From the NCBI GenBank assembly GCA_021777755.1, contig JAJYDE010000038.1:1-39457 (forward strand): 39,457 nt of DNA. Direction: 5' to 3'. The stretch comes from Deltaproteobacteria bacterium (GTDB lineage Bacteria > Desulfobacterota > Syntrophobacteria > Syntrophobacterales > Syntrophobacteraceae). Position 1 is the stretch's first letter. Each line of letters starts with the position of its first letter. A program made the position numbers and the translations under genes. Shown piece by piece: positions 4,961 to 38,779 of this stretch. The notes below the pieces were generated by a model. The model made no database searches and was not told the DNA's origin. It saw only the letters and a program-made list of their open reading frames with translations.

Positions 4961-5148
4961 ATCGCATTTTAACTCGATATGCGAGCTACTGTTTTCGATT
5001 GAATACAGGACAAAGGCTTCCATCATGTAAATCTCAGGGAAAGCGGTTCTTTTCCAGTTTTCCTGGCAAGAATAGGAGGATGCGAAGAAACCTTCATCTC
5101 CAAGCCATCACCCGTTCACCCGCTTTCCCCCTCTCTGGTTTCCGCTTA

Positions 5149-5636
5149 TATTGCCGCTTGTATTGCCGCCTCTATTGCCGTTTCAGGGTGCCGTTTTGTG
5201 GCCCGAAACCCCTATGTGATATTCCCCCCACGTGGATTCCACCGTTATCGGCCGGCGGGCCTTTCGGCCCTCGGCGCCCGTAACAGGGTTCTTTGAAAAC
5301 CGAATAACCGGTTAATCCGGACCTTTTCCACTCATTGCGCCTCGATCGGCAAACCCTTGCCGTGAAGACCACGCAGGCGCGCAGGCCTGCGCCTGGCGAC
5401 CACCCGGCCCTTCACCCGGCGCGGTCTTAATGCCGATTTTTCCTCCGCCCCCTTACTATCGCTTACTTTCGCGCTTCAGTTTTCCCCCCCTTTTTTCGCC
5501 CATTTTTTCCATGCTGTTCCCGTGCTGTTATCGTGCTGTTAACCATGCTGTTACCCATGCTGTTATCCTCGCTGTTCCCATGCTGTTCCCATGCTGTTAT
5601 TCCTGCTGTTATTTTTTACCCAAAAAGGCTGAAATA
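5149..5636 (+). repeat. Composite repeat element, copy 1
   Basis: An array of unrelated tandem-repeat blocks that recurs inverted at 37790-38390. In order: four 12-bp units beginning TATTGCCG (5149-5196), a GTGGATTCCACCGTTATCGG segment, the anchor TTCTTTGAAAACCGAAT (5289-5305, identical in the other copy), a pyrimidine-rich stretch, and nine CATGCTGTT units. A 32-nt stretch at 5594-5625 is identical in both copies. It has no coding potential I can support. Confidence 0.85.
5510..5625 (+). repeat. Nine-unit 11-13 bp iteron-like block (copy 1)
   Basis: Nine units with core TGCTGTT, mostly CCATGCTGTTAC/CCC, spaced 10-13 bp, end in CTGCTGTTATTTTTTACCC. The inverted copy has nine units too, with the same order of spacings. 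Direct repeats of this size resemble protein-binding iterons or centromere-like sites, but no cognate replication or partition gene is in the window. Confidence 0.85.
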
Positions 5637-6068
5637 TACGTTAAATCGCCATGATAAGAAAATCGGCAAAAAACAATTTTTCAATCGACATCATGAGAAC
5701 GCCGCCCGGTCGGCCCATAAGTGCATAACCGGGGATACATGCCTTTTCCCAAAAGGCGCAAGTTTTCTTCCGACTTCATCAAGCGCTCAAAGATCTGCGT
5801 CAGCCTCTCACCTCGCTTCCGCCTTCATCCGTAAATTCGTTTGTACTGGAGTATTTGTGAACATCAAACCCGACACGGCCCTTACATCTTTCCATGATCG
5901 GCCGACCCCGGTTGTGGTTCGAACCACATTCTTCGCAACGCCCCGGCAATGCTCATGAGAAATGCCACAAAAAAGACTGGCGTTGGATAATTTGCAGAGG
6001 TATTATCCGAAAGGCTCACGTAAATATGGCGGCTTGACCGCCCGTTCCTGCAAATGCCGGATGGGGCC
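5637..6068. other. Intergenic, no supportable gene
   Basis: Between the composite repeat and the sensor kinase. Frames on both strands are short and lack ribosome sites; no RNA gene, IS end or clear promoter was recognised. The kinase promoter should lie in its last 100-150 bp. Confidence 0.4.
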
Positions 6069-17165: not shown

Positions 17166-17418
17166 ATGTAGCGGGGAGCGAGTAGCGGGTAGCAGGTAGC
17201 GCAGGTGGCAGGTGGCAAAAAAGCGCCTTCCTGCTTCTCACTACCATTTTTCTCCCCGCCCCTCGCTCCCTACTCCCTGCTCCCTGCTCCCTGCTCCCTG
17301 CTACCCGCTCCCCGCTACCCGCTACCCGCTCCTTGCTACCCGCTCCCCTGCTCCCCGCTCCCTGCTCCCCCGCTCCCCCGCTCCCCGCTCCCCGCTCCCC
17401 GCTCCCCGCTCCCCGCTA
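17166..17418. repeat. Second heptamer array with G-quadruplex-prone tract and inverted arm
   Basis: From about 17270 to 17418 the sequence is CGCTACC, CGCTCCC and CTGCTCC units; on the minus strand the part next to the fusion-protein stop reads GGGGAGC repeated with tracts of four or five G and 3-nt AGC loops. The stop codon TAG of the fusion gene is part of the first unit. On the other side, 17167-17195 is the reverse complement of 17297-17318 apart from one 7-nt bulge, so the array could fold back just upstream of the pump's ribosome site (about 17151-17157). Same unit family as 1-280. Confidence 0.9.
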
Positions 17419-37457: not shown

Positions 37458-37789
37458 ACGTGGTGTCAGTACGGGAAGACACTCTTATTGGCAATTGTGT
37501 TCGGCTAATGTGTTCGGCAATTGTGGCAAGGGATACTATTATCAATTGCACGCCTTTTCAAACGAAACTTGTTTACGCCGGTGGCCCGCGATTGAAAGCC
37601 CGGATTTTTTGCCAGGGAGGGACAAGAAATAGTTGTCGTTTATCGGCGAGGGCCGCGCTTTTTAAAACTTCCAAATTGAGAGCTGTATCCCCGGTTTTGC
37701 AATTATGGGCAATTCGCCGAGAAGATCACGCTGTTTTTTGAAAAAATATTTTTTTGCCTGTTTTGCTATCATACTGATTTAACGCATTT
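37458..37789. other. Intergenic, AT-richer, no gene seen
   Basis: No supportable frame. It has a 10-bp direct repeat GGCAATTGTG at 37490 and 37516 with a TGTTCGGC repeat between, and a run of A/T near 37738-37755. The LytM-like gene's promoter should lie here or in the CRISPR repeat itself. Confidence 0.4.
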
Positions 37790-37798
37790 TTAATGCTA

Positions 37799-37917
37799 TT
37801 TTGGGTAAAAAATAACAGCAGGAATAACAGCACAGGAACAGCATGGGAACAGCATGGATAACAGCATAGGTAACAGCATGGGTATCAGCATGATAACAGC
37901 ATGGTAACAGCATGGGG
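37799..37917 (-). repeat. Nine-unit 11-13 bp iteron-like block (copy 2)
   Basis: Nine TGCTGTT-core units in the same spacing order as 5510-5625, with one unit mutated to TGCTGAT. The flanking 32 nt (37799-37830) are identical to 5594-5625. Confidence 0.85.
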
Positions 37918-38172
37918 AAAAAGGGCCAAAAATCGGGCGAAAAGAGCGAAGCGCAAAAATAGGAGATATTAAGGAGGGCGGAGGAGAATAAGGAGGGCGG
38001 AGGAAAATCGTTTTTTCGAGTGCGGCCGACTTGCCGGGGGCGCGCCGGGAGGCGGAGGGGAGGCGGATGGGCGGAGGTCTTCGCCAGGGCGGACCGCACG
38101 GGAAGAGATTTTCGACGGACGCGGGAAGAGCAAAGTCATTCGGTTTTCAAAGAACTCCGTTATCGGGTGGGC

Positions 38173-38269
38173 GGGTCGCAAGGTCCGCGGAGCGAAAGAA
38201 CCACAGGGCGCAAGGACCGCGGGTCGCAAGGACCGCAGGTCGCAAGGACTGTTAGTCGAAAGAACCGCC
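38173..38269. repeat. 16-bp tandem block inside copy 2
   Basis: Six units of 15-17 bp resembling GGGTCGCAAGGACCGC start at 38173, 38189, 38206, 38221, 38237 and 38253; two carry GCGAAAGAACC variants. The matching place in copy 1 (about 5235-5285) has roughly one related unit, so this block expanded or contracted after the copies separated. Confidence 0.8.
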
Positions 38270-38452
38270 GGCCGGTAACGGTGCAATCCACGGGGTTTTG
38301 TATCACAAGGGGATTTTAAGGCGCAAAACGGCATCCAGAAGCGGCAAACAGGACGGCAAATAGGGGCGGCAAAACAAGCGGCAAGCAGTTGGTGGCGACA
38401 TCCGTCTGCCAGAATCCCCGGGGCCGACTTCTCGGTGGCCCTTCCTTACTCA

Positions 38453-38779
38453 CTACCCCCCGCGTTCGGATTTAAAACCCGAAGGCAACCGGCGGGCACC
38501 CTGAAAAACCCGAAGGATATGGACAGCCTTGCCCTCAACCATGTATGGTACAATGTATGGCACAATGTACGGAGTGCCTGTTACGACGAGTTCCCGCGTA
38601 TCCGGTACGCGGCCGGGACGACCAGTTGCAGGATGCTTCGCCAAAACATCGACACTATCCAAGACACGCTTTACGAGATCGGCCGCCGCTTGAGGATTAT
38701 CCTGAGCAATATAATCCGCTTCGGCATCCAGGTTTTTCAGGGCAGTCCTCAACCAGCGAATTTTATAACCACTTGTCAC
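38453..38779 (-). CDS. RelE/ParE-family toxin with a 4-residue internal duplication
   Basis: A 108-residue toxin of the RelE/ParE superfamily, starting MTSGYKIRWLRTALKNLD; ADYIAQDNPQAAADLVKRVL, HPATGRPGRVPDTRELVV and VHILRVFQGARRLP are typical. ParE members poison gyrase; others cleave mRNA. In the core the family's single TPYIVPYR-like strand reads TPYIVPYIVPYMVEG, because of a 12-bp unit repeated near 38541-38576. The extra IVPY may distort the central sheet and reduce toxicity. It overlaps the antitoxin gene by 17 bp, antitoxin first, the usual order. Confidence 0.9.
   Translation of the reverse strand: MTSGYKIRWLRTALKNLDAEADYIAQDNPQAAADLVKRVLDSVDVLAKHPATGRPGRVPDTRELVVTGTPYIVPYIVPYMVEGKAVHILRVFQGARRLPSGFKSERGG

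Follow-up and report, generated by a model that had tools for sequence, protein, structure and literature searches.

The window, i.e. the whole 39,457-nucleotide stretch of DNA analysed here (57% G+C), contains two inverted copies of one composite unit in which four blocks follow each other in identical order, an arrangement that an earlier note had proposed and that the alignment coordinates confirm. The limits it gave, 5149-5636 and 37790-38390, place the copies correctly but are too narrow, as the conserved region runs from 5139 to about 5739 on the + strand (copy 1) and from 38384 to about 37684 on the − strand (copy 2). Similarity begins at a TTGCCG-type array, continues past GCTGTT repeats and an A/T-rich segment, and ends at GGGGATACA. 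The individual parts are:

5139-5199, + strand: copy 1, TTGCCG-type array with units at 5139, 5151, 5163, 5175 and 5189, running into TTTTG (−35-like); the same array stands before phage-type genes
5215-5222, + strand: copy 1, extended −10-like sequence TGTGATAT
5288-5305, + strand: copy 1, boxA GTTCTTTGAAAACCGAAT
5306-5512, + strand: copy 1, pyrimidine-rich variable middle
5513-5610, + strand: copy 1, nine GCTGTT iterons spaced 11-12 bp
5611-5739, + strand: copy 1, A/T-rich 3' module with GTTAAATC core at 5640-5647, up to GGGGATACA
38328-38384, − strand: copy 2, TTGCCG-type array of five units
38300-38307, − strand: copy 2, extended −10-like sequence TGTGATAC
38171-38268, − strand: copy 2, 16-bp tandem expansion between promoter and boxA, lacking in copy 1
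38138-38155, − strand: copy 2, boxA
37814-37911, − strand: copy 2, nine iterons
37684-37812, − strand: copy 2, A/T-rich 3' module with GTTAAATC core at 37776-37783

Identical stretches of 32 and 17 nt had been reported between the copies; they exist, but the longest exact match is 34 nt (5592-5625 against 37832-37799) and the second, which is GTTCTTTGAAAACCGAAT itself, is 18 nt (5288-5305 against 38155-38138). The count of nine repeat units likewise stands for copy 1, all of them GCTGTT, but copy 2 has eight GCTGTT and one GCTGAT. A ParE-type toxin gene (38453-38779, −) lies immediately upstream of copy 2, and tandem heptamer-type arrays (CGCTACC, CTCCCTG) occupy positions 1-266 and 17252-17417, similar heptameric stretches being present within elements of genome G003. 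The window also carries a ThiC-like gene with a cobalamin riboswitch (Rfam) just upstream of it (281-1588 and 1688-1877, both −) and a cobalamin adenosyltransferase gene near the two; the ThiC-like gene might represent bzaF, a gene for the lower ligand of B12.

As judged by alignment, the unit is a member of a dispersed intergenic family of one bacterial genus, in which the blocks follow one another in the same order in different species: a TTGCCG array of 12-13-bp units that ends in a promoter, boxA, a pyrimidine-rich stretch, GCTGTT every 10-13 bp, and an A/T-rich segment. Copy 1 matches 25 stretches of its own genome (4.2 Mb in 103 contigs) at E ≤ 0.001, 11 near-complete copies, each about 700 bp including flanks, can be aligned over their full length, and a GCTGTT-triplet pattern gives 63 overlapping matches at 13 places, the reversed pattern none. 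With another copy as query, 8 of 97 genomes were matched, i.e. the own genome, six of the ten other genus members and one distant genome, the last by a 25-base stretch only. The search for further copies that the earlier note had proposed thus found them, with block order conserved, in the genome itself and in its relatives. A short array pattern, allowed up to two mismatches, matches G003 52 times (2 for the backwards control), G007 39 (3), G008 37 (0), G001 27 (1), G000 22 (3), G010 12 (2) and G005 7 (0), and G002, G004, G006 and G009 one to three times each. All are draft bins with genes called by a simple in-house scorer, family searches checking selected proteins only. Since copies occur in both orientations at many places in the genome, the pair in the window is not special, and inversion of the 32-kb segment through it, as had been suggested, is not supported in the one assembly.

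A small non-autonomous element that captured a phage promoter and spread selfishly by transposition or recombination would make any link to a regulon incidental. Consistent with this, the ends are discrete (the array at the 5' end and the 3' end are common to the copies), flanks are unrelated while the middle varies in length, and variants are species-specific. Four loci of the own genome (L011, L015, L018, L020) share duplicated upstream flanks that include a histidine-kinase fragment. An orthologue search for the copy-1 kinase led to two unrelated loci. At the copy-2 site, orthologues of the downstream gene lie beside priA in each of eight other genomes, and the upstream DNA examined there contains no array or iterons; the site being empty in all eight, copy 2 is lineage-specific. 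Target-site duplications are a feature of miniature transposable elements (MITE-like), and transposition generating them had been one proposal, yet the longest flank repeat averages 5.56 over 34 elements and 5.39 (SD 0.18) when partners are shuffled; with 35 of 200 shuffles reaching 5.56, there is no excess. No transposase was found and no terminal inverted repeats were noticed, and the retention of promoter, boxA and iterons in order over a large divergence suggests constraint. We therefore regard selfish spread as possible but rather doubtful. BOX elements are likewise dispersed intergenic bacterial repeats. So are STAR elements (PMC3532100) and the TAACTGA direct repeats of Beggiatoaceae (PMC4679880), which share with the present family short direct repeats at many intergenic sites in a lineage-specific distribution; here, by contrast, the repeats are joined to boxA and to a promoter common to phage structural genes. 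Literature searches, confined to open-licence papers, returned no description of such repeats.

The promoter character of the array was analysed in 80 distinct arrays from examined loci of six genomes (none from G005), which were chosen for having an array and are not a census; at least one of them is spurious, namely a duplicate entry, lying upstream, of the L113/L140 element, whose boxA and iterons it inherits. In 60 of the 80, a TATAAT-like −10 lies at 18-58 nt, counted from where the last unit begins, and in 37 of these it is at offset 32, as against 5 of 80 in the next interval. Downstream on the same strand, boxA (up to two mismatches) follows in 33 arrays and at least three GCTGTT units in 32, while a variant double hairpin follows 11, all in G003. 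None of these three features lies upstream of any of the 80 arrays, and neither boxA nor iterons occur antisense (0/80). In elements defined by iterons or hairpin, boxA is found at up to four mismatches in 29 of 43, and in none over 20 rounds of shuffles, though 13 of the 43 lack a match even at six; in the own genome boxA or iterons are missing from 6 of 18 arrays. The block that the earlier note had called an anchor is thus real and conserved, but its identity is now that of an rRNA-type boxA, because nearly the same sequence (GCTCTTTGGAAACTAAATA or GCTCTTTGAAAACTARATA, starting 51-85 nt before 16S) is carried by the 16S leader of relatives, namely G002 of the genus and G026 and G029 of the order. 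A 16S search in the own genome found none, and the rrn reference is therefore taken from these relatives; at the level of sequence, a boxA matching it does stand downstream of the promoter. Eight viral matches to the exact boxA showed no array in the parts examined, and several resemble ordinary phage or gene leaders.

Leaders of rRNA and of CRISPR arrays carry boxA (PMC12691694, which cites Stringer 2020), and the succession described there, promoter, boxA and a long untranslated transcript, appears to recur here, the repeat boxA almost matching the rrn boxA of relatives. The repeats differ in having neither rRNA nor CRISPR repeats behind them and in being driven by a phage-type array promoter. 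That they are non-coding, as had been proposed, is borne out by 48 elements that combine an array with boxA, iterons or a double hairpin: none of them lies inside a called long ORF. They might instead act as a 5' leader or portable promoter for neighbouring genes, as both window copies point at a gene (6054, +, for copy 1; 37424, −, for copy 2) and the downstream gene is on the same strand in 25 of 42 elements that have one called. This split of 25 to 17 is no bias (p=0.28), and the downstream genes vary between copies; the lack of orientation bias, together with the position of all 48 elements outside long ORFs, makes an mRNA leader unlikely, and we hold the whole proposal improbable. More improbable still is the structured regulatory RNA that the earlier note had envisaged. 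An alignment of own-genome leaders (n=10) does fold, with 17 pairs and 92% of cells paired, but only one of the 17 shows two Watson-Crick types, and RNAalifold finds no pairs across species in either leader (n=21) or tail (three genomes, n=18). Nor does any Rfam family correspond, searches at the gathering threshold and at a relaxed E-value giving, besides two matches at chance level, only the cobalamin riboswitch described above.

The iterons number 3-10 per array and are spaced 10-13 bp (in one case 14); the stretch before them averages 67% pyrimidine and 16% G, and A+T makes up 66% of the 95 nt that follow them (n=32). The suggestion that the repeat is a protein-binding DNA site is possible.

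The TTGCCG array is not confined to the repeats. Some arrays of G003 and G005 are immediately followed by phage-like genes, and in IMG/VR two array patterns match 9 and 13 stretches, making 15 distinct records, several of them near-duplicates. In 14 of the 15 the array precedes terminase, portal, DUF5681 or neighbouring genes; in the remaining one (L160) none of these lies behind it in the part examined. The families represented are portal PF12236, terminase phrog_2, capsid GP7, Bbp19, protease phrog_458, internal virion phrog_308/418 and tail phrog_376. Two records (L158, L166) include host genes found also beside the cluster of G003, so that the 'viral' label is no proof of a free virus. In the host clusters of G000, G001, G005, G007, G008 and G010 an array was seen, by eye, before 11 of 21 inspected gene starts, chiefly at operon heads; for the terminase of G000 and G008, the 420 bp next to the start showed none. 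Arrays elsewhere drive a 736-residue protein with transglycosylase/endolysin-type PHROG matches (L272), DUF5681 genes (L274, L147), a 735-residue protein without assignment (L273) and a conserved 153-residue protein (L150, 3102-3560; also L061 and L139), which adjoins a ligase-like gene, has no Pfam or PHROG match and is a candidate regulator. Genome G001 has a second podovirus-type cluster (L221, contig C183) with a variant TGGCC-type 13-bp array, TGGCCNCTTCT, at 5787-5823 before one start, which suggests a sister activator specificity.

The host clusters are built from tailed-phage genes. On contig C102 of the own genome, all in one direction, terminase, portal and Bbp19 are followed by host genes (TsaE, NAD(P)HX epimerase/dehydratase, complex I) and these by protease, capsid, lysozyme, tail and internal virion genes; matches include portal PF12236 (3e-154), capsid GP7 PF20911 (8e-135) and Bbp19 PF25181, besides tail and internal virion proteins, the terminase being phrog_2 as assigned for a homologue. 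The phage genes are split into operons with host operons between them in six of the seven carrying genomes and contiguous in G003; complex I genes adjoin them in G000, G001, G005, G008 and G010. A truncated portal in G010 (L222; C25, 41277-41816) sits between terminase and complex I, an intact one following the capsid genes, and looks like the relic of a relocated gene. Portal PF12236 is present in 7 of the 11 genus genomes, the same seven that have 7-52 array matches, the other four having 1-3; the chance of this is 1/330 if genomes are independent. Portal and exact array are both absent from the 15 family genomes outside the genus. The podovirus-type genes that have the array before them (terminase, portal, protease/capsid) are intact, and selection on the cluster genes is strongly purifying: no compared structural gene has internal stops, and dN/dS is well below 1 and similar to that of complex I genes, although some dS values are saturated (portal of G000 and G001, dN 0.060, dS 1.31; capsid of G000 and G008, dN 0.046, dS 1.90). 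Synteny is shared, and pairwise identities agree with those of the host gene for the portal but not for the capsid (the distance correlation is 0.83 between portal and Nnr and 0.03 between capsid and NuoD, over six pairs each). Among named phages, those of the epsilon15 group come closest in the portal (41%).

In its genes, this cluster resembles a gene transfer agent (GTA). As defined in the passages cited (PMC9662315), GTAs have structural proteins derived from caudoviricetes, genes that are fully endogenised, often at multiple loci, mostly vertical inheritance with co-diversification with the host, particles that package mostly random host DNA and deliver it to other cells, and a gene set too large for full packaging. 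Likeness in the own genome extends to the caudoviricete-derived structural proteins and to intact tailed-phage genes endogenised over several loci under purifying selection. According to the section cited (PMC11841831), a run-off replication origin derived from a phage is coupled with BaGTA, a precedent for DNA sites acting together with particle genes. The present cluster is set apart by its epsilon15/BPP-1-like character and by many dispersed non-coding units bearing the particle-gene promoter, a feature that the cited portions of these two sources do not mention for GTAs.

A tie of the 3' module to the phage is putative. Scanned phage records and host clusters contain no iteron array or double hairpin, and boxA is likewise not found beside phage genes; G005 has arrays and portal, and the composite element was not found among its matches. 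Together these observations weaken the claim that the phage system needs the 3' module. Two viral matches to the iteron pattern showed no array in the parts examined. A G003-type iteron hairpin lies within the DUF5681 gene of G003 (L121) and within that of one viral record (L163); G000 and G001 lack it in their DUF5681 genes. No instance of the motif CTGnATTTnCAG occurs in a further 258,551 bases of phage or cluster DNA. By position the DUF5681 product is small-terminase-like. A CI-like repressor (HTH_3 and Peptidase_S24) adjoins the cluster (L213, 1146-1901, −; L222, 5487-6236), has relatives in G007 and G008, and is a candidate regulator, possibly damage-inducible. As an iteron-binding protein it is no more than a lead, since upstream of its gene, over 700 bp in each of four genomes, there is no iteron or convincing array and only two single array-like matches.

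Because they carry the same array promoter and co-occur with the portal, the most plausible reading of the repeats is that they are non-coding parts of a regulon belonging to a domesticated phage, a link to podovirus-type genes that the earlier note did not foresee. We give a probability of roughly 55% to the reading that each copy is a non-coding transcription unit of a domesticated-podovirus regulon, with an activator, boxA antitermination and opening of the iteron and A/T-rich module as its inferred elements. A putative activator would bind the TTGCCG array, as its direct repeats stand in phase before the −35, and on induction of the phage-type genes RNA polymerase would start at each copy. 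BoxA would recruit NusB/S10, so that Rho would not stop the untranslated, G-poor transcript; transcription would then traverse and open the iteron and A/T-rich module, in which a further putative protein may bind the iterons. The promoter held in common with the particle genes suggests that the repeats act when virus-like particles are made. Phage late promoters with activator sites offer a parallel, one activator-type promoter coordinating separate structural operons, as appears to be the case here; the differences are that most of the elements with boxA and iterons drive no gene and that the activator is putative. The arrays could also be decoys that titrate a phage activator, thereby defending the host or restraining the domesticated phage. 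Their number per genome (up to 52 pattern matches, in G003) and the presence of the same array in phage-type records would fit, but a decoy has no need of the −10, boxA and iterons that are nevertheless kept, which leaves titration with little likelihood.

Within the regulon reading, the dispersed sites might be switched on together with the particle genes such that the iteron and A/T-rich module serves as a transcription-activated origin or packaging start. Slight support comes from the iterons lying next to A/T-rich DNA and from the hairpin within the DUF5681 genes of G003 and L163; its lack in those of G000 and G001 speaks against. We advance this tentatively and think it unlikely; were it true, many parts of the chromosome would be amplified or packaged at once. 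If the link between repeats and phage genes holds, the genus maintains a domesticated podovirus, with structural genes scattered between operons of core metabolism, and tens of non-coding units lie under the same promoter as the particle genes. The use of boxA would then extend from rRNA and CRISPR transcripts to dispersed repeats. It also becomes a testable question whether a phage-derived particle system may control DNA sites all over the chromosome of its host.
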